Source of the DNA: Onchidella celtica | Taxonomy: Eukaryota; Mollusca; Gastropoda; Systellommatophora; Onchidiidae | Assembly: GCA_963931925.1 (NCBI GenBank) | Contig: OZ007570.1 | Location: forward strand, 41,623,687 to 41,687,686 | Length of the DNA stretch: 64,000 nucleotides | Direction of reading: 5' to 3' | Part shown: positions 1,292-63,574 of the stretch, piece by piece | Layout: the number at the start of each line of letters is the position of its first letter | Numbering within the stretch: position 1 is the stretch's first letter | Notes under the pieces: model-generated | Seen by the model: only the letters and a program-made list of their open reading frames with translations | The model's database searches: none | What the model was told of the DNA's origin: nothing | Made by a program: the position numbers and the translations under genes

Positions 1292-1676
1292 TTAAATTAG
1301 GGGTCAGATTAATCACAACACTTATGCTGGTATACAGATAAAGAAATCGATGTCAAAGGAACACAGGGTATCATGTATACATAAAACCAAACCAAAAAGG
1401 GGTTCTTTTAAAGATGTTTGGATATAAACACTAGCCTTAATGCCAAGTTTAGTATTTGATTACAAGATGTATGAGAGAAATTGTGAGTGGTAGGAAGTAC
1501 TGTAAAAATTAGATGATTTTAAATTAACTTAAAAAGATTATACCGGTATCCAAGTACTTTCTGATACAGATCTTTTATGCAGCAATATCAAAGCTTTCCA
1601 TTTGATTTATTTGTTTCCTTGTTGTTTTATTCTTCATCTGTGGATGCTTCTCAGTGCATGATGATTTATTTTCCAG

Positions 1677-1829
1677 CTGAATGCATGGGATAAAAGGAAG
1701 ACTGAAGAACCAGACTACCTTGCTAGGTTGGAAGCTTTCACTCAAACCAATACCATGATGTCAGAGATGGAGCCCAGTGTGAACACATTACTGCCGATCA
1801 TATACAATTGTTGCCACTTTATCCATACA
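1677..1829 (+). CDS. UTP20: UTP20 exon 1 of window
   Basis: This exon has 51 codons, phase 0 at both ends. The acceptor is a T-rich tract ending TTTTCCAG and the donor is GTGAGT. It reads LNAWDKRKTEEPDYLARL then a helical stretch ending NCCHFIHT. It is charged and helical like other HEAT-repeat segments. It is the least distinctive of the exons, and rests on its splice sites and its phase fit to the next exon. A run of 20 G lies 44 bp past the donor. Confidence 0.75.
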
Positions 1830-5450: not shown

Positions 5451-5804
5451 GCCTTTATTATGCAAAGCTGCTTTAGACTGTTGGTTACTTTATAAATGGT
5501 TTACCTGAAACTTCAAAGTAAAGCAAAAGTTATTTGGTGAGAGAAGAAGAACAAACGATGACTATCATTCCTAGTTTTCTTGCCAACACACTACAGTTAC
5601 ATACAAGGAACTCTTTCTCTGTCAGGAAAAGATAAATTGCAGTTATTTTGAGTGGTCAAGAGATGCAGAGTCTGGCTTGTAAGTAAATTTGAAGAACAAA
5701 ATTTGACATGTTCATTTTATATAAGAAATAAAAACAGGGAAAAATAATTATTACAAAAGGGGAACATGATTGTTACAAATTTATTGAAAACCTCTGTTTT
5801 ATAG

Positions 5805-5966
5805 GTGGATGACTTATCCATCAGAGACAACTCTACCCACTGTCTTGTGAGTATAGTGACCAAACTGACATCCAGCTCTTCTGCAAATGACATCAAGGTA
5901 TTTAACATTGTGATGGAAAAGGCCTTACTACCCCAGGTCAAACAAGGGATAAAACATAGGTCAGAG
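5805..5966 (+). CDS. UTP20: UTP20 exon 2 of window
   Basis: This exon has 54 codons, phase 0/0, between an acceptor ending TTTTATAG and the donor GTAAGC. It begins VDDLSIRDNSTHCLVSIV and ends KQGIKHRSE. Amphipathic helical pairs fit a HEAT array. It is separated from exon 1 by a 4-kb intron filled with a dispersed repeat. Confidence 0.88.
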
Positions 5967-7697: not shown

Positions 7698-7969
7698 ATT
7701 CACAAAAGATCAAGAGCACTCCGACGTTTATACAGGCATCTCAAGGACCATCACTTCCGTTCAGAGATTCACCTCTCCTACTTCGTTCCTCTAGTCAATA
7801 CTTTTGTCTTAGATCACACATATTCAAAATATGCTAACATTCAAGATGCAGCCATTGATCTTCTAGGTGCCATATGCAAACAGCTTCCATGGCAACATTA
7901 TTTACACCTGGTGAAGTTTTACCTGAAGTTGTTGCCCAAAAAGGTGGAAATGCAGCGCCAGATTGTCAG
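7698..7969 (+). CDS. UTP20: UTP20 exon 4 of window
   Basis: This 272-nt exon starts in phase 0 and leaves two bases (AG) at its donor GTTTGA. It reads IHKRSRALRRLYRHLKDH, then a long HEAT segment with AAIDLLGAICKQLPWQHY and ending KKVEMQRQIV. The basic start and the GAIC..L.W.....Y block match the UTP20 family. The donor is weak in its +4 to +6 positions. Confidence 0.95.
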
Positions 7970-30649: not shown

Positions 30650-30741
30650 AACAGAGAACGAAGAGAGATTTTAAAAAAGAATGAATTACACTCTACAGTA
30701 CCATAATCACATAAAAAAATACAGACATCTTTTCAGAAATT

Positions 30742-31211
30742 CATCATCATCATTGCCTTTCTCACCCTGGATCAGGGTATAGGCCACCAACAAACACCTT
30801 CCATCCCTCTCTATCATGGGCCAGCCTCTTTACATTATTCCAAGTCTTTCCGCTTCGTTGCACATCATTTTCTCTGGCTCTTCTCCACGTTCCGCGCGGC
30901 CTTCCTCTTGATCTCTTGCCCTGGGGATTCCAGTCCAATACCTTCTTCGTGATGCTGTTTCCTGGCCTCCTGAGAGTGTGGCCGATCCATCTCCATCGCC
31001 TCCTACCAATTTCCTCTCTGACTGGGTTCTGTCTTGTTCTTTTCCATACAATTTCATTGCTGACCTTGTCTGTCCATCTGATCTTAAGTAGCTTCCTCAA
31101 ACATCTGTTGATGAAAACTTGGATTCTCTTTATGCAGGCCTGGGACGCATTCCAGGTCTCACATCCATACAACAGGACTGACTTCACGTTCGAGTTGAAT
31201 ATCCTCAGCTT
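30742..31211 (-). mobile_element. Truncated non-LTR retrotransposon, copy A
   Basis: The minus-strand frame (31187-30762) reads MKSVLLYGCETWNASQACIK, then RRRWRWIGHTLRR and GKRSRGRPRGTW, the C-terminal tail of an RTE-like reverse transcriptase. It ends in a (ATG)n-type 3' tail at 30742-30752. Imperfect 12-bp flanks TTTTCAGAAATT and TTTTCAAAAATT (30730 and 31212) may be the target duplication. It sits inside the Harbinger element and is nearly identical to copy B at 51272. Confidence 0.85.
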
Positions 31212-31366
31212 TTTTCAAAAATTACATAATATAATAATAAATACATCACATATAACATATATAACAAAAATTAATAAAAAAATTAATGCTGGATCTGAGT
31301 TACTCATAATTTTCACATCTTGACTGATCATTTATTTTAAGATTTGTTTCATTTTCTCTTCCCCAG

Positions 31367-31941
31367 CTGACTTAGCCCGCAAGAAGTGGCAAAACTTGCG
31401 GGGTTCCTACAGCAGGAGCCTCGCATCAAGGAAATTACCGAGTGGGTCCGGAGCCAAAAGACCCATCCGGTTTTATTTAGAGGAACAGATGGGGTTCCTG
31501 AAGGGGTATATGACCCATGACACCTTGGTAGGGAACTATGGAGCAGTTCCTGGTGGCAGTGAGGAAGAGGCTGCCACTGCCAGTACGAGTACTGACCAGG
31601 AACGTGCTCTAAGTGCCATCAGCAGTCTGGCACCAATGTCAGAAACCTCAGAGCCTGACACTGACAGCACCGGCAGCAGGCCTGCAACCCCAACTCCACC
31701 ACCCATGAAAAAGAAAAGGGTAGAGCATCCAGTTGAGGATGCATTTATGAAATTTTTGGCGTCAAAGGCCACACCATCGACACCAGCAGACCCTGATCTA
31801 AATTATTTTAAGGGGATCCTTCCCCAAGTGAAGGAGCTCAATCATAGGAACAAAAGAATATTTTTTAACAATGTGTCAAACATGTTGTTTGGCATGTTGG
31901 AAAGCCAGGACGGTGCACAGGAAACGGTCACCTATATTTAA
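31367..31941 (+). CDS. MADF-BESS protein of Harbinger element, exon b
   Basis: After acceptor CTTCCCCAG, two bases complete an Ala codon. The frame reads ADLARKKWQNLRGSYSRSLA, the second half of the MADF domain (KKW.NLR..Y.R). A Ser/Thr/Pro-rich linker with a basic KKKR patch follows. The last third (YFKGILPQVKELNHRNKRIF and FFNNVSNMLFGML) looks like a BESS motif, a protein-interaction module often paired with MADF. The stop is TAA at 31939-31941. This exon lies inside the transposase intron of the opposite strand. The phase fits exon a. Confidence 0.82.
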
Positions 31942-34852: not shown

Positions 34853-35187
34853 GAGAGAATATACTTTACCAATCTGTTACTTAGTTACTGAAGTTCTTCA
34901 CCATTCTATAACTTAGCTATTGGATGAGAATGTACATTACGAATCTATTACTTAATTTATGAATGAGAATGTACTTTACCGATCTATATCTTACTTAATG
35001 AATTGAGAATCTACTTGATCAATCTATAACACAAGTGTTGAATGAGAGTGTGCTTTACCAATCTATAACTTAGTTAATTAATGAGAATGCACTTTACCAA
35101 TTATAACTCGGTTGTTGAATAAGAATGTACTTTGACAATCTATATCTTAGCCAATGAATGAGAATGTACTTTACCAATCTATAACTT
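34853..35187 (+). repeat. 39-bp minisatellite, about 8.5 units
   Basis: Units of about 39 bp repeat in tandem, built from GAGAATGTACTTTACCAATC and TATAACTTAGTTAATGAAT with 5-20% divergence. The array stops exactly where the TTAACCCTCGTCC start of the next R1 copy begins. Confidence 0.92.
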
Positions 35188-37642
35188 AACCCTCGTCCCA
35201 CGCTGAGTGAACTCGTCCAAGTAACGCCCCATGCAGGGATAGCCAGCGGCCAGTCAGCTGATCGTTCATGTGTTGCCGATAACCTCAGCAGTCAAGTCGT
35301 GAACACGTGTATCAACACATGTATTTAGGACGCAATATAACAATAGTGGTGGATAAATCATAAGTGACCCCTATATTTGGATGAAGTACTTGTGATAATA
35401 TGCAGTAAGTTTTATTGTCAGATGGGAGGCCCAAAATCAAGAATTTTCTGCATTTACATGCCGTTTAACACACGTTTTATCATTTTCCCAAGACGTGCAC
35501 TTTTTCTGTCCCTAAGTCAGGCCATTCAGGTGAACAAATTATTTTTTAAGCCAGGCGCTTAATTTACTAAGCGCATGATCGTAGCATTGCCTTCTCCCTC
35601 CTCTACCATGTAAAGCTTCCACCTACTATGTTGTTAGTTTTAGCGAGAGATGTGATTTCCAGGTCGTAGAGCACATGACATACATGTAGGCCTACTGAAA
35701 AGTGGTTTAATCAAAGGAACACAATATCTCTCTAATTACCACATCAAATAAAGACAACGACCAACAACAAAGTCGGTCATTTTCTCCTAGTTTTCCCTGA
35801 TTTTTTCCCCTACAGACAGATGCCCTTATACAGCATGCCCTAATATTACATCGGAATTTATAATTACAGACATAGAACAGCGTCTCAAATACGAACATGG
35901 CCCCTTTCTTCTCATTTCACATGTAGACAACAACCAGCATCAAAGTAAAAGTTTCCCCAAGATTTTCCCCAGTTTGAACTTCAGACCGGCAGTACTATTA
36001 CACGAGTATAACGAATAGTTACGAATAGTTGCATCATAATAAACGTAATCGTGCCTACTCGGTTGGGGGTAGGGAGGGTTGGGTAGAAACTAACTAGAGG
36101 GGACCCACCCGGCCACAATGCACATGTATTCAGTTTTCTCCGAGACTGGTCATCGCCGGCATGTCTGGAAAGTGTCGATCTACTGTTTTTGATGTCCACC
36201 GGAGATGTTACCTGAAGTGTGGCCTAACCTAGGGGGAGTGAAGGTAGCATGGAGACCATTTGCTTAACTGGGTCATACTCTATTGCCCTATTGGAGAGGG
36301 CGGCGCATCTTTTTTTTTTTTCAGAATATTGAAAGAAAGATTATAGACGGCATTTGCGGAGGCAAGTTACGGCCAGACAGGACTAGTGTTGCGTCCTCAT
36401 GAGCATTATTATGTATGCAGTACTCCAGTAGCAGTATCATCAGGGGAAAAAAAAAACTGGGCTGAAGAAAATCAGCCTGAGAGTCCCCAGCGTGAGCTTA
36501 TCTTACATAGATTCATAGACCTATGGAGGTTTTGAAAAAATTTTTTTATTAAGCATTGGTATTAACTACAGTAAAACCTCGCTATACCGCCATTCCCGCA
36601 TACCGCCAGCTTTTCGCCGTGGAACGGATCTGACACCTATACAAAGCCACAAAATCTCGTTATACCGCCATCCGCCAACAGTTTGACTGCTACATTCATA
36701 ACTTGAGCATAGTAAATATTGCTCGTTATAGCCCAACGTAAATTTAACCTCCACTCCCCATATCTACCTAAATCCACCTAACAGACGGAACATCACATGA
36801 CGCCACAGTCTGTGCTTGTTACTCAAACACCAATCCTACTACACAGTCTTCGCTTTTGAAGTCCTGATAGGCCTACTGATGGGGCATGCAGTGGGAAAGA
36901 CGGGTCACAGTTCAATAGAGAGTTTGCTAACGAACGTATGCGCGCGCGAGGTGATGCTTCAACTGGTTCATACCGGTCGCGGGGTACGATGCAAACAACA
37001 CACGTTTGTTGCTGAATTGTAATGTAGCATTATTTGTCGTGTTGCAATACATATACAGCAGTCTCCGTCTAAGAACTCGCCGCCTTAGAACCTGCTGTTG
37101 CCGCGAAACCGAATTTTTTCACTATAATTTACATGCGTAAGAACCCGCTCTGAAACGAAAACTCCGCCTAAGAACCCGGCATTGGGCCGAGAGACGAGCA
37201 CACTTTTACGTAAAATGTCCATATTATTAGGCCTACGCAAAATTCTCTTTCAAGTAGACGGGATAGAACAAAGAAAGGCACACAGTACAGTGAAAAAGAG
37301 CGGGTAGGGGGAGACGAATCGTACAAAGGATGGAGCCCAGTTACGTCTTTCGTGTGCAAGCAGGCCACTCCTAGGCTAAATTAGCATAGTCATTACCTAA
37401 CATCTATTATTGTCTAACTCGAGGGGCAGAATTTTATACGTAATTGACCACGTGCTTGGTTTGCACGGCATGTACTTGTGGCTGATTCTGGTTATTACAC
37501 AGGGTATCACTGGGCCTCGTGTTGTCTAAAATCGGCACCTGTGATTCACAACTTGATTGTTCAGTCTGAATCGTTCTATTCGTTACACTATCGTCACTGT
37601 AAGAAAAGAGCATTCTGCTAGCCATAAGTCGTGACCATTCGC

Positions 37643-50990: not shown

Positions 50991-51271
50991 CAAATAATGT
51001 TTGAATATTTATTAATAACAGTATATATTTAATAATGAATAATAATAAATTTTGTTGTTGCTGGTGGGGGAGGGGGGATGATATGGATAAATTTTAATCT
51101 ATTAATTTCAATTTTCAATTTTGCCCGGGCAGCGGCCAGTATGGAATAACAAACAGTCTGAAATAACTTAAGAATATCAAAACAATCAAAGATATTTTGC
51201 CAGGCGCTCATGGTTGCATGGCACTGTTTATTTAGCTAGAAGACATGCAAATGAAATGTCTACCAAGTGTT

Positions 51272-51724
51272 CATCATCATCATCATTGCCTTTCTCACCC
51301 TGGATCAGGGTATAGGCCACCAACAAACACCTTCCATCCCTCTCTATCATGGGCCAGCCTCTTTACATTATTCCAAGTCTTTCCGCTTCGTTGCACATCA
51401 TTTTCTCTGGCTCTTCTCCACGTTCCGCGCGGCCTTCCTCTTGATCTCTTGCCCTGGGGATTCCAATCCAATACCTTCTTCGTGATGCTGTTTCCTGGCC
51501 TCCTGAGAGTGTGGCCGATCCATCTCCATCGCCTCCTACCAATTTCCTCTCTGACTGGGTTCTCTCTTGTTCTTTTCCATACAATTTCATTGCTGACCTT
51601 GTCTGTCCATCTGATCTTAAGTAGCTTCCTCAAACATCTGTTGATGAAAACTTGGATTCTCTTTATGCAGGCCTGGGACGCATTCCAAGTCTCACATCCA
51701 TACAACAGGACTGACTTCACGGCA
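51272..51724 (-). mobile_element. Truncated non-LTR retrotransposon, copy B, perfect TSD
   Basis: It is flanked by the identical 12-mer CTACCAAGTGTT at 51260-51271 and 51725-51736. The minus-strand frame (51720-51295) encodes the same RT tail as copy A with only a few base differences. The 3' end is an (ATG)n tail. It is 5'-truncated to about 450 bp. Confidence 0.95.
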
Positions 51725-52246
51725 CTACCAAGTGTTAGCAGGAAAAAATTCTTATAAAATCAGTTTCTCGTGATAGGGTTCTTTTTGCAGTATCATTCAA
51801 AAGCAGGGTGGCAGGGTTAACATCCAAGAAGTACTGTAATTCCATTTCTGCCTGCCACTGGGACTGAATTGTGAAGCCCTCAATATTATGATCTCACATA
51901 TTCGATGGCAGTAGTATTTTGTCATGTGCTGATCATGGCACACTTGTGATGAGAGTAGTCAATGACTCGTGTGGCTCCAATGGGGCCTGATTATTTAGGT
52001 ACATGTAATAAAGTTCACAGTTCATCATACATAGTTTTTCCAGATTAAAAACAGGGACATAAATTACTAAATAAAGATTTCCTCAACATGACACATGTAT
52101 GTTTTTAACACTGTATGAAACTTCAGACAGCATGAATTCACACCAAATAACACCACTAATCTTAATCCATGATTGATTTAATTTTGAGAAAAAAATCACT
52201 TCCAGCAAAAGTACTCATACATCTATTCTATATTCATCTAATCAAA

Positions 52247-52936: not shown

Positions 52937-55900
52937 CGTTGGCGATGTGATTCAACCACCCAAGCGACAAAATTCTTGAAATTTACTTTTTAACCTTTCT
53001 GCATAGTACAAACCTCACAACACATTATGTTAAAACCTTGAGTTCGAAGGAATATTGGAAAGAGTATTAATTTTTAAGTAAATCATTCACCCATATCCAG
53101 GACTTCCGAATGTCGTCGTGATTCAACCGCTCGGGCGCCAGGTAAGCTGCCCATGATGCGTGGGCAATTCAATCACGTCAAATCGGCGATACAAGAGCAG
53201 TCTACCTGGTGCGTGGGGGGAGTCAACTGCTTGACCGTTGCCTGTATGGGATATTGTCTACAATATCATCAAAAGAAGACTACTGATGACCGGAGTATTT
53301 TGTCCAGACATTTTGCGTAATTTATCGTCACCTGGATGTGGCTGAGAAAAAGAGCCAGACGAAGAGGTCAAAGAAGATGTTAATGCCGCCGTGACCAAAT
53401 CGATGATTTGCTGCAAAATGCGACTGACTAACTAAACAAAGAAAAGTCTGCTTGCACGATTGAAGGCTAAGGCTGGCTCCGTTTCATTTCCGAAATACCC
53501 ATTGGTCAATGAGTTTTTCAGTTTGGAATACTGGTCGAGAATGTTCTTTCTTAGTTAAGTATAAATAATGCTCTTCTTGGTGTATATTATCATTCTTTAA
53601 GATTAGTTCTAAAGCTCCTTCTGCTGAACTGCTGATTGAAATTAAAGAGGCCACTGCTAATTCTGAACTGCAAGAACCTGCACCCACTGTCTTTCATGGA
53701 AACATAACAGCGGATGAAGGAGCAATCCACAAAACAACAAAGCACCAAATACTGGGCCTAAAAGAGTGGAAGCAAAACAAAAGAAAAGAACACCGTCAGA
53801 AGGGTCAACCCTACATTTTGCAACGAGGAAAGGAGATATCAGCTCGTGAAATGAAAGCGCCTTGCTCATGTAAATCCCAGGCAATGAAATGTCAGGAATT
53901 CACCCATGAGGACAGATCGAGTAGCAATTTTTGACTATATAATATGGACCCTAACAGATAATGCTAAAAGGACTTTCGTCAACGGACTTATTCATCAAAT
54001 TCCAGTGAAATGCAAGAGAGTGTCTACGGATTCCCCAAGTAGGCTTTGGACTCTTAACTTGAAACAATATTTGGTGACGTTTTCCCTGTGTGCAAAGCAA
54101 TGTTTTTTAATACTACTGCACTGCAATTACACAATGGTTCATTCGAAGCTGTTTTAAAGAAATTTCTCAGGATTTGGAGACCGAAGCTCCACGATCATCA
54201 TACTACATGTATAAAAGAGCAGATGGTGACAAACTCTTTCTTCACAATGAAACTTTCTTCACAGAGAAACTGAACAAGATGCCTTCACACTATTGTGGGC
54301 AGAACACAGGTAAACCATATCTAGAATCCCACTTTCAAAGTCTAGCAGAGCTTTATAGGGAGTACAGAACTAAATGTGAAGAGAAAAATCGGAATGCACT
54401 CTCTCTAATAACGTTCAAGGAAATTTTTCGTAAGAGTAATATGTCATTGTATGTGCCTCGCAAAGATCAATGTGATCTGTGTGTGTCACACAATGAAGGA
54501 AATTTGTGTGATGAAGTTTGGGAAAAGCATATCAAATCGAAAGATCTGGCAAGACAAGAGAAGGAATCAGATAAGAAGCTTGCGCAAAATTGTATTGATG
54601 GGACAAGAGTATGTGCAATAAGCATGGACTTACAAGCAGTTCTGCTGGCCCCGGCTCTGAAAGCATCAGCATTGTATTACAAGACCAAATTGGCTGTGCA
54701 TAACTTGACCATTTACAATTTGGTCACCAAACATGTTAAGTGCTACGTTTGGCACGAAGGAGAAGGAGCAGTGGCTGCCACTGAATTTACATCTTGTGTT
54801 GTAAACTTCTTGAAGGAAAACGCTGACAATATGATAAGTTTATTATATATAGCGATGGCTGTACTTACCAGGAGCGCAACGCTACCCTCTCTAATGTAAT
54901 CAGTAACTTTTGTACTAGAAAAAACAAAATCGTCGAACATAAATACCTTGAAAAAGGACACACCCAAATGGAGGTGGACAGCACACACAGTTTGATCGAA
55001 AGGTGTCTGAAAAACACCCCTCTCTATGTGCCCATTGCCTATGTGAACATTTTCAAACAGACGAGGCAAAACCCATCCCCATTCGATGTCCGCCATCTGG
55101 ACCATTCCTTTTTCATGGATTTTTCCAAGACTGGGCTGTATAAAACTATTAAAAGTATCAGACCTGGCCGTGGCAAAGGAGACCCTGTTATTACCAACAT
55201 TCATTGCCTTCGTTATACCCCGGACAGGGCCATCCAATACAAACTGAAGTTTGACGATGAATGGGCTCCATTACCCTTTCCACGAGGACGAAACAGTGCT
55301 GCCCCGAAGCACCAACACCACTCTATTCAGATCGCCTAAAAATCCAGCAGTCAAAATTTAAACACCTACAGGAACTTGGTGTTATTCCTAAAGACCATCA
55401 TCCTTTCTATGATAATCTTAGACACTAGAAGTAGAAGAAATCAATTATCCAAGATAATACATTGTAATATTGACTTTTAAAGAAGTGGAGAGTTGGCAAT
55501 AATGTATAATTATTTTCATGTTCCGGTTCTAATTTTCTTTTCATACAATAAACCTTCAAAGTTTAGAAAAATGGAGTAAATCGTTAATCTCTTTCTTGCT
55601 CATAATAATCGCATGTCTTTCGAATGAATGGGTAAGTGAGTAAATGATGCAAAAGAGAATGGAACGATTGTTTTATTACCCTTAAATGGTACTATCACAT
55701 TCCTTAGTCAATAACTCCAACGCCCAAGCAGCAACTGGTGTATGCTGAGTAGCTTTGATCGACGTGATTTAAACGCCCAAGCACCACACTGTCGCCTGGG
55801 CGGTTGAATCACATCGATTAAAGTAGATCTCAAAGGCCCATATGCAGTACTATATGTAACACAGCAAAATTTTATTAAATTTTGATTTAATACTATATTC

Positions 55901-61537: not shown

Positions 61538-61673
61538 GATTGTGAAGACCAAAACAAAAATGAGCAGCAAGACACTTACCTATTGGCCCTGATGAATACC
61601 ACTCAAAAAATTATGCGGGAACTTAATTTAGCAAGGCAGGACAAGTTTACTGAGACCTTTAATCAAATTTGGG
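61538..61673 (+). CDS. UTP20: UTP20 exon 20 of window
   Basis: This 136-nt exon starts in phase 0 after TCTTTTCAG and leaves one G at donor GTACGT. It reads DCEDQNKNEQQDTYLLALMN and ends FTETFNQIW. The polar start and the ...L......I.....E....IW end fit the family loop before the last HEAT block. Confidence 0.92.
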
Positions 61674-62528: not shown

Positions 62529-62716
62529 GTCACATCCTTTCACACCTTTCATATCCTCATGTTCAAATACGACTTGCAAGCAGTCAGCTTCTGGGCCTTT
62601 TGTTCAGCATGTGGGAACCTGCCGAAATTGCAGCATTACAAAAGAAAGACATGGCTGCTTACAGTGATGAAGTAGATCAGAATTACCCATTTATTCTGAC
62701 AAATACCTTGGAGAAG
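62529..62716 (+). CDS. UTP20: UTP20 exon 21 of window
   Basis: This 188-nt exon completes a Gly codon (G+GT) and ends in phase 0 at donor GTGTGA. It reads HILSHLSYPHVQIRLASSQL and LGLLFSMWEPAEI. The H..SHL.HPH...RL...Q..GLLF block is a strong UTP20 match. Confidence 0.96.
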
Positions 62717-63461
62717 GTGTGAACAAGTCTTCAGCCATATTTCTTTTAATCAACATGATGTGCAATTGTGATGACTTGCATTTTCAAGCCAGTGTAAAAA
62801 CTTAAATGGCTCCAGCTTTTAGACTTACATTAATTTGATTATAAAAGCCTTTGTGTTATTGCTGTTATAGGATTGAAAAGCACAGTAAACAGAAATTATT
62901 TTATGCTCCTTTATATAACTTTATATTGTTATTGTTTATATAAAATCTTTTAAGGCAACTTTACTTTGTTTTTGTTTTGAGAATTAAGGACAAATATTTC
63001 TGTTTGTTGAAGAAAAAAACTTTCTTGAGACAATACTTTGTGCTTGACCAGCGTTGTTTCTGTCCTTATCTGTCACAAAGTATCCATTTCCCCAAATCAG
63101 TTCTTTTAATTGTCCTTTCATACAATGCATGAGTGAACAGTATGAGTGTTTGCTAAACAAATGGCCCCATGTGCACTCTCATACTTTGATTTTCACTTAC
63201 TGGGCACTGCCCTCCATGCCCCCCATCCCTTTTCTTCATGTTCAAAACATCAGTGAGGTGGCAACTGGGATCTTGCATGCTTGGGAATGGGCAAGTTCAG
63301 GTAGATTCTTATCATTAGCATACAAATGAAACCATTGTCTAGGAGCAAGGCCGGATATCTCAGCAAGTTTTAGTACATGAAAAGAATATTATGAATATTT
63401 TTTTCACATCTCTTAAAATCTGCCATTTTAAGTTAAAAGTCATTGTTTTGTTTTTGTTAAG
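62717..63461. other. Intron 21, nothing recognised
   Basis: Apart from a 25-bp word shared with 61981-62005 (at 62876-62900), this 0.75-kb intron shows no feature. Confidence 0.45.
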
Positions 63462-63574
63462 ATTCGGAAGTTTGCTGTGGCACTCTGTCATCAATTGAAA
63501 GGTTCTACTTTAGATCTGTGGCACTCTGTCATCAATTGAAAGGTTCTACTTTAGATGAATGTCTTGCAGGACAG
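63462..63574 (+). CDS. UTP20: UTP20 exon 22 of window, frame broken by 41-bp duplication
   Basis: Between an acceptor ending TTTTGTTAAG and donor GTAAGT the exon is 113 nt. It reads IRKFAVALCHQLKGSTLD and then runs into a second, identical copy of bases 63475-63515 at 63516-63556. The second copy is read in a shifted frame and meets TGA at 63537-63539. With a single copy the exon would be 72 nt (24 codons), would end ECLAGQ, and would keep phase 0 at both ends, as the family alignment (L..CHQL....LD..L..Q) expects. The duplication is therefore either a misassembly or a disabling allele. Internal TTTAG sites do not restore a usable frame. Confidence 0.9.

Follow-up and report, generated by a model that had tools for sequence, protein, structure and literature searches.

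An exact 41-bp tandem duplication in a UTP20 coding exon of the Onchidella celtica assembly, probably a heterozygous null allele

A coding exon of UTP20 (small-subunit processome component 20) in the assembled genome of the slug Onchidella celtica contains an exact tandem duplication of 41 bp, which shifts the reading frame and brings in a TGA. UTP20 is essential for ribosome assembly. The duplication is probably a real and recent event, and the duplicated form a heterozygous null allele retained in the primary assembly. Such an allele is most likely ordinary and harmful, and would be found on one of the two chromosome copies of the slug. The window analyzed, the whole stretch of 64,000 nucleotides, corresponds to C4:41623687-41687686 (contig OZ007570.1), and the genome searched comprised 1.14 Gb in 43 contigs. 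The features that bear on the duplication are listed in Table 1.

Table 1. Features of UTP20 at and around the duplicated unit (window numbering; positions above 64000 lie past the window end)
Feature	Position	Strand	Basis or remark
UTP20 exon, intact, upstream of the break	61538..61673	+	Reading frame; Pfam
UTP20 exon, intact, upstream of the break	62529..62716	+	Alignment to human UTP20 starts at residue 2467; Pfam
UTP20 exon as assembled, 113 nt, frame broken	63462..63574	+	Splice boundaries and translation; one-copy form compared with human UTP20 and Pfam
41-bp unit, copy 1	63475..63515	+	Exact match to 63516-63556
41-bp unit, copy 2	63516..63556	+	Exact match to 63475-63515
Hypothetical 41-nt GT...AG intron	63502..63542	+	AGGT in each copy; enumeration; weak splice scores
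Premature TGA	63537..63539	+	Last exon-exon junction lies 437 nt farther downstream
Downstream UTP20 exon	66190..66324		Frame
Downstream UTP20 exon	67843..67963		Frame
Downstream UTP20 exon	69729..69874		Frame
Downstream UTP20 exon	76161..76316		Frame

The duplicated unit and the conserved form of the exon

The nucleotide sequences of the two copies were compared directly and every letter was the same. TRF described the repeat as 2.0 copies with 100% matches. The matching does not extend beyond the ends of the unit on either side (0 bp), so the microhomology at the junction is zero. This is the sole perfect tandem copy with a period above 15 bp in the window, and an exact tandem copy of 41 bp is not attributable to chance. 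The exon in which both copies lie is preceded by TTAAG and followed by GTAAGT. As assembled, it reads IRKFAVALCHQLKGSTLDLWHSVIN and then reaches the TGA in frame. With a single copy of the unit, the exon is 72 nt long, has phase 0/0, contains no stop, and encodes the peptide IRKFAVALCHQLKGSTLDECLAGQ.

The amino acid sequence encoded by the preceding exon and the one-copy exon aligned with residues 2467-2550 of human UTP20 (PDB 7mq8, E 2.9e-6). The 3′ part of the protein was compared with the Pfam UTP20_C profile in three forms. The form that includes the one-copy exon scored 158.9 bits, the form lacking the exon 141.9 bits, and the assembled form 19.5 bits, the curated cut-off of the profile being 27 bits. 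The two exons that precede the break reached by themselves 19.2 bits, also under the cut-off. The alignment with the human protein and the three-way comparison of scores indicated that one copy is the form found in the UTP20 family. The initial annotation had described two identical 41-bp copies inside a UTP20 coding exon (exon 22 in its numbering), as was borne out by the letter comparison, TRF and the bounds of the exon. Its statements that the exon matches the family at 72 nt and phase 0/0 with one copy, and measures 113 nt with a TGA at 63537 with two, agreed with these comparisons and with the translation, respectively.

Integrity of the gene and quality of the assembly

UTP20 occupies at least 110 kb of the contig (C4:41589264 to about 41700002). 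Its exon order and sequence match human UTP20 and Pfam UTP20_C, from which the slug gene differs in having one exon whose frame is broken in this assembly. From 61538 on, the 3′ part of the gene is intact except for this one change, and farther upstream only some of the exons were read. The four exons downstream of the break join in frame to the stop (558 nt, 186 codons with the stop counted) and match UTP20_C (E 2.9e-34, profile positions 147-307 of 308). Therefore, the gene is not decaying in this region. The duplication thus interrupts the frame of a real and otherwise intact gene, with the exons upstream of 61538 checked in part. Stops were flagged within three of the five matches to the UTP20_N profile; two of these matches (window 1662-1829 and 5769-5963) contain an open exon frame, and the stops there look like intron sequence read within the match.

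The broken exon with its flanks was compared with the DNA of the whole genome and, among the best candidates, had one match, which was itself (161/161 bases). The protein sequence of the preceding exon also had one match among the best candidates, and the five UTP20_N matches, again among the best candidates, were all located along the same stretch of C4. Within the best candidates of these DNA, protein and profile searches, neither a second functional UTP20 nor a retrocopy was found in the assembly. A pseudogene was ruled out by the intact downstream exons. Since only one locus was found and the later exons are intact to the stop, the lesion appears recent and isolated.

A different way of accounting for an open frame broken so near its end is that UTP20 without its last part suffices in the slug. 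The stop is indeed late, the exon corresponding approximately to residues 2529-2550 of the 2785 in human UTP20. However, the part that would be lost is the one that spans the UTP20_C profile at the positions given above, and it is conserved with human UTP20 (E 2.5e-13; the match covers residues 50-136 of a query that lacked one exon and had a wrong junction at its residues 46-47, outside the match). The intact state of the downstream exons also argues against a long-standing truncation, and we regard this explanation as extremely improbable.

The report of the assembly, xgOncCelt3.1, describes PacBio HiFi sequencing at ~71x, assembly by hifiasm with the --primary option, a primary QV of 56.8, a heterozygosity of 0.47%, and the separate deposit of the alternate haplotype (PMC12744200), which has the accession GCA_963931835.1. 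The same report gives 1,037 contigs and 923 gaps (PMC12744200). These numbers imply that local errors exist in the assembly, and one copy restores a conserved exon in a gene thought to be essential. Both chromosomes could then have one copy, the second having been created by read chimerism or by an artefact of the graph. We consider such an error unlikely. The exon and its flanks had a single genomic match among the best candidates, and the window contains no N, which indicates that no scaffold gap falls in it. At this HiFi coverage and k-mer QV, a duplicate without read support would be expected to add unsupported k-mers. Furthermore, a perfect two-copy duplication is not peculiar to the UTP20 exon, as another one, of 30 bp, is present in the 203.5 kb that surround the gene.

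That region has three loci with perfect tandem copies of period 20-200 bp (30 bp x2, 41 bp x2, and 27 bp x3-4), a count that leaves out two 15-bp and two 16-bp rows. Four distant stretches of 8 kb were also inspected. Satellite arrays were present in one of them and absent from the other three, and none of the four had a two-copy perfect duplication of this size class. Outside the census count, 21 contig-end and mitochondrial stretches were scanned as well, and L020, L021, L022 and L025 were telomeric. The repeats listed for stretches L023, L032, L035 and L040 were mostly arrays of 15-19 bp, two of which also had longer periods within them. Perfect two-copy duplications of this size are thus uncommon but present, and no special cause is needed for the 41-bp change.

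Possible splicing of the duplicated exon

The duplicated unit includes AGGT, at 63500 in the first copy. Therefore, the GT of copy 1 and the AG of copy 2 bracket exactly 41 nt, the removal of which leaves exactly the one-copy peptide. The frame would likewise be kept as far as the stop of the gene if the whole exon were omitted, with the loss of 24 residues. By either route, a duplication that is homozygous or common could be tolerated. A gain of introns by duplication of a segment containing AGGT, known as the Rogers model, has been documented, and cases have been described in ATP2A1, fission yeast and potato (PMC4974935). The slug exon shares with these introns the duplication inside a coding exon, the AGGT in the unit, and the exact restoration of the peptide upon excision. 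The candidate intron differs from them in that the donor and acceptor are weak, the YTNAY branch motif is missing, and the length is 41 nt.

Splicing has been shown for human introns of 43, 49 and 56 nt, within a survey that listed candidates from 37 nt, and inefficient splice or branch sites were reported in 9 of its 15 supported introns of 37-65 nt (PMC4463651). The slug candidate is very short, slightly below the 43-nt human intron known to splice, and the six neighboring UTP20 introns near the break and the 3′ end measure 745-6286 nt. Its splice sites were scored with generic weight matrices. The donor, AAG/GTTCTA, scored -4.7 and fell below all 15 control donors (-0.4 to 8.8), a set that excludes one ambiguous donor, belonging to the exon that starts at 7698. 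The acceptor scored -2.8, also below all 17 control acceptors (-2.3 to 8.4) but only narrowly under the weakest, the set including two weak acceptors at -1.7 and -2.3. About half of the control exons were defined by alignment with human UTP20 or Pfam and the rest by an open frame read by eye. Within the window, 48% of 3728 GT and 34% of 3833 AG scored at least as high as the candidate sites. The donor thus scores about as would a GT picked at random from the window, while the acceptor is better than about two thirds of the AG there. There is no YTNAY branch motif in the 41 nt, and of the 20 bases that precede the AG, 55% are pyrimidines; this content was higher in 13 of 14 controls and lower in one.

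The presence of AGGT carries little weight, since it was found in 247 of the 1567 41-bp windows (16%) of 14 UTP20 exons. Skipping of the exon would remove 24 residues that contribute to the score against the family model, as seen in the lower UTP20_C score of the exon-less form given above. Taken against what characterizes Rogers-type introns, the tandem duplication with AGGT in a coding exon and the peptide-neutral excision are present, but competent splice sites, a branch site and a pyrimidine tract are not; by the generic matrices the donor is clearly weak and the acceptor just below the weakest control. We judge a rescue by splicing of a homozygous or common duplication very unlikely, and it is highly improbable that the slug survives with two copies on both chromosomes because the 41 nt are removed as a spliceosomal intron at birth (or dealt with by in-frame exon skipping). 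Were the segment removed by splicing, the slug would offer an uncommon instance of an intron gained in an essential gene and observed before its copies had diverged.

Other ways to read through the exon were enumerated. Acceptors at 63380-63569 combined with donors up to 63700 yielded eight exons open in frame, none of which had the whole conserved peptide, with donors of -3.9 to -10.2. Inside the exon, nine GT...AG stretches of at least 25 nt keep the frame; eight of the nine alter the peptide, and their five donors scored -4.1 to -8.1. The stretch 63462-63539 was also searched for a slip site of -1 ribosomal frameshifting, and it contains no X XXY YYZ in frame.

Origin and consequences of the probable null allele

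The initial annotation had left three alternatives: a misassembly, a heterozygous null allele or an unusual splicing case. The second one stood as the best fit, given the one locus, the intact later exons, the lack of N and the HiFi QV of 56.8, and the duplication is then real and most likely heterozygous. Misassembly came second. The form of splicing had not been named, and the sites found for it are poor.

According to the heterozygous null reading, the slug that was sequenced would have a single copy of the unit on its other chromosome, and the primary assembly, which represents a single haplotype, would have kept the mutant one. Nonsense-mediated decay usually acts on stops located more than 50-55 nt upstream of the last junction, and by this rule the premature TGA is far enough upstream. 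The mRNA would be degraded by this pathway or, otherwise, the protein would lack most of the UTP20 C-terminal domain, and in both cases the allele would be null. According to a review, deleterious recessives number 15-38 per genome in the European oyster and 8-14 in the Pacific oyster (PMC6058216); these numbers concern oysters and not this slug.

In both flies and primates, the majority of short insertions consist of tandem duplications (PMC2374710). Tandem duplications arise when breaks that have protruding ends are repaired by classical end-joining, and those made by polymerase theta have microhomology in almost all cases (PMC5730883). The zero microhomology at the 41-bp junction fits the classical pathway rather than polymerase theta, and suggests that the duplication probably originated from two offset nicks, fill-in, and end-joining of the staggered break. 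In the slug exon, as in short frameshift alleles of this kind, tens of bases are copied exactly head to tail, the junction is free of microhomology, and the frame is lost. A transposon target-site duplication was also considered and rejected because of the 41-bp length, as target-site duplications are not known to be so long. If the allele is heterozygous and null, it is one further case of genetic load frozen into a single-haplotype reference, an ordinary finding. It would also warn annotators against repairing the frame with a pseudo-intron or declaring the gene lost in the species.

Several other features were observed between or near the UTP20 exons. A long open frame at 31324-31938 (+) encodes part of a MADF domain (PF10545, positions 42-84 of 84, E 6.1e-5). 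The long open frames 54111-54896 and 54827-55336 (+), which overlap in different reading frames, appear by eye to be one broken gene of transposon type. The conceptual translations of 30715-31320 and 51236-51754 (+) are nearly identical and represent a dispersed repeat. A tandem array with a period of 39/77 bp (7.5 or 3.7 copies) is located at 34896-35189. In the intron directly downstream of the broken exon, past the window end, a segment of more than 200 bases at 64584-64826 has translations that recur 362 bases farther on, at 64946-65191, with few differences.
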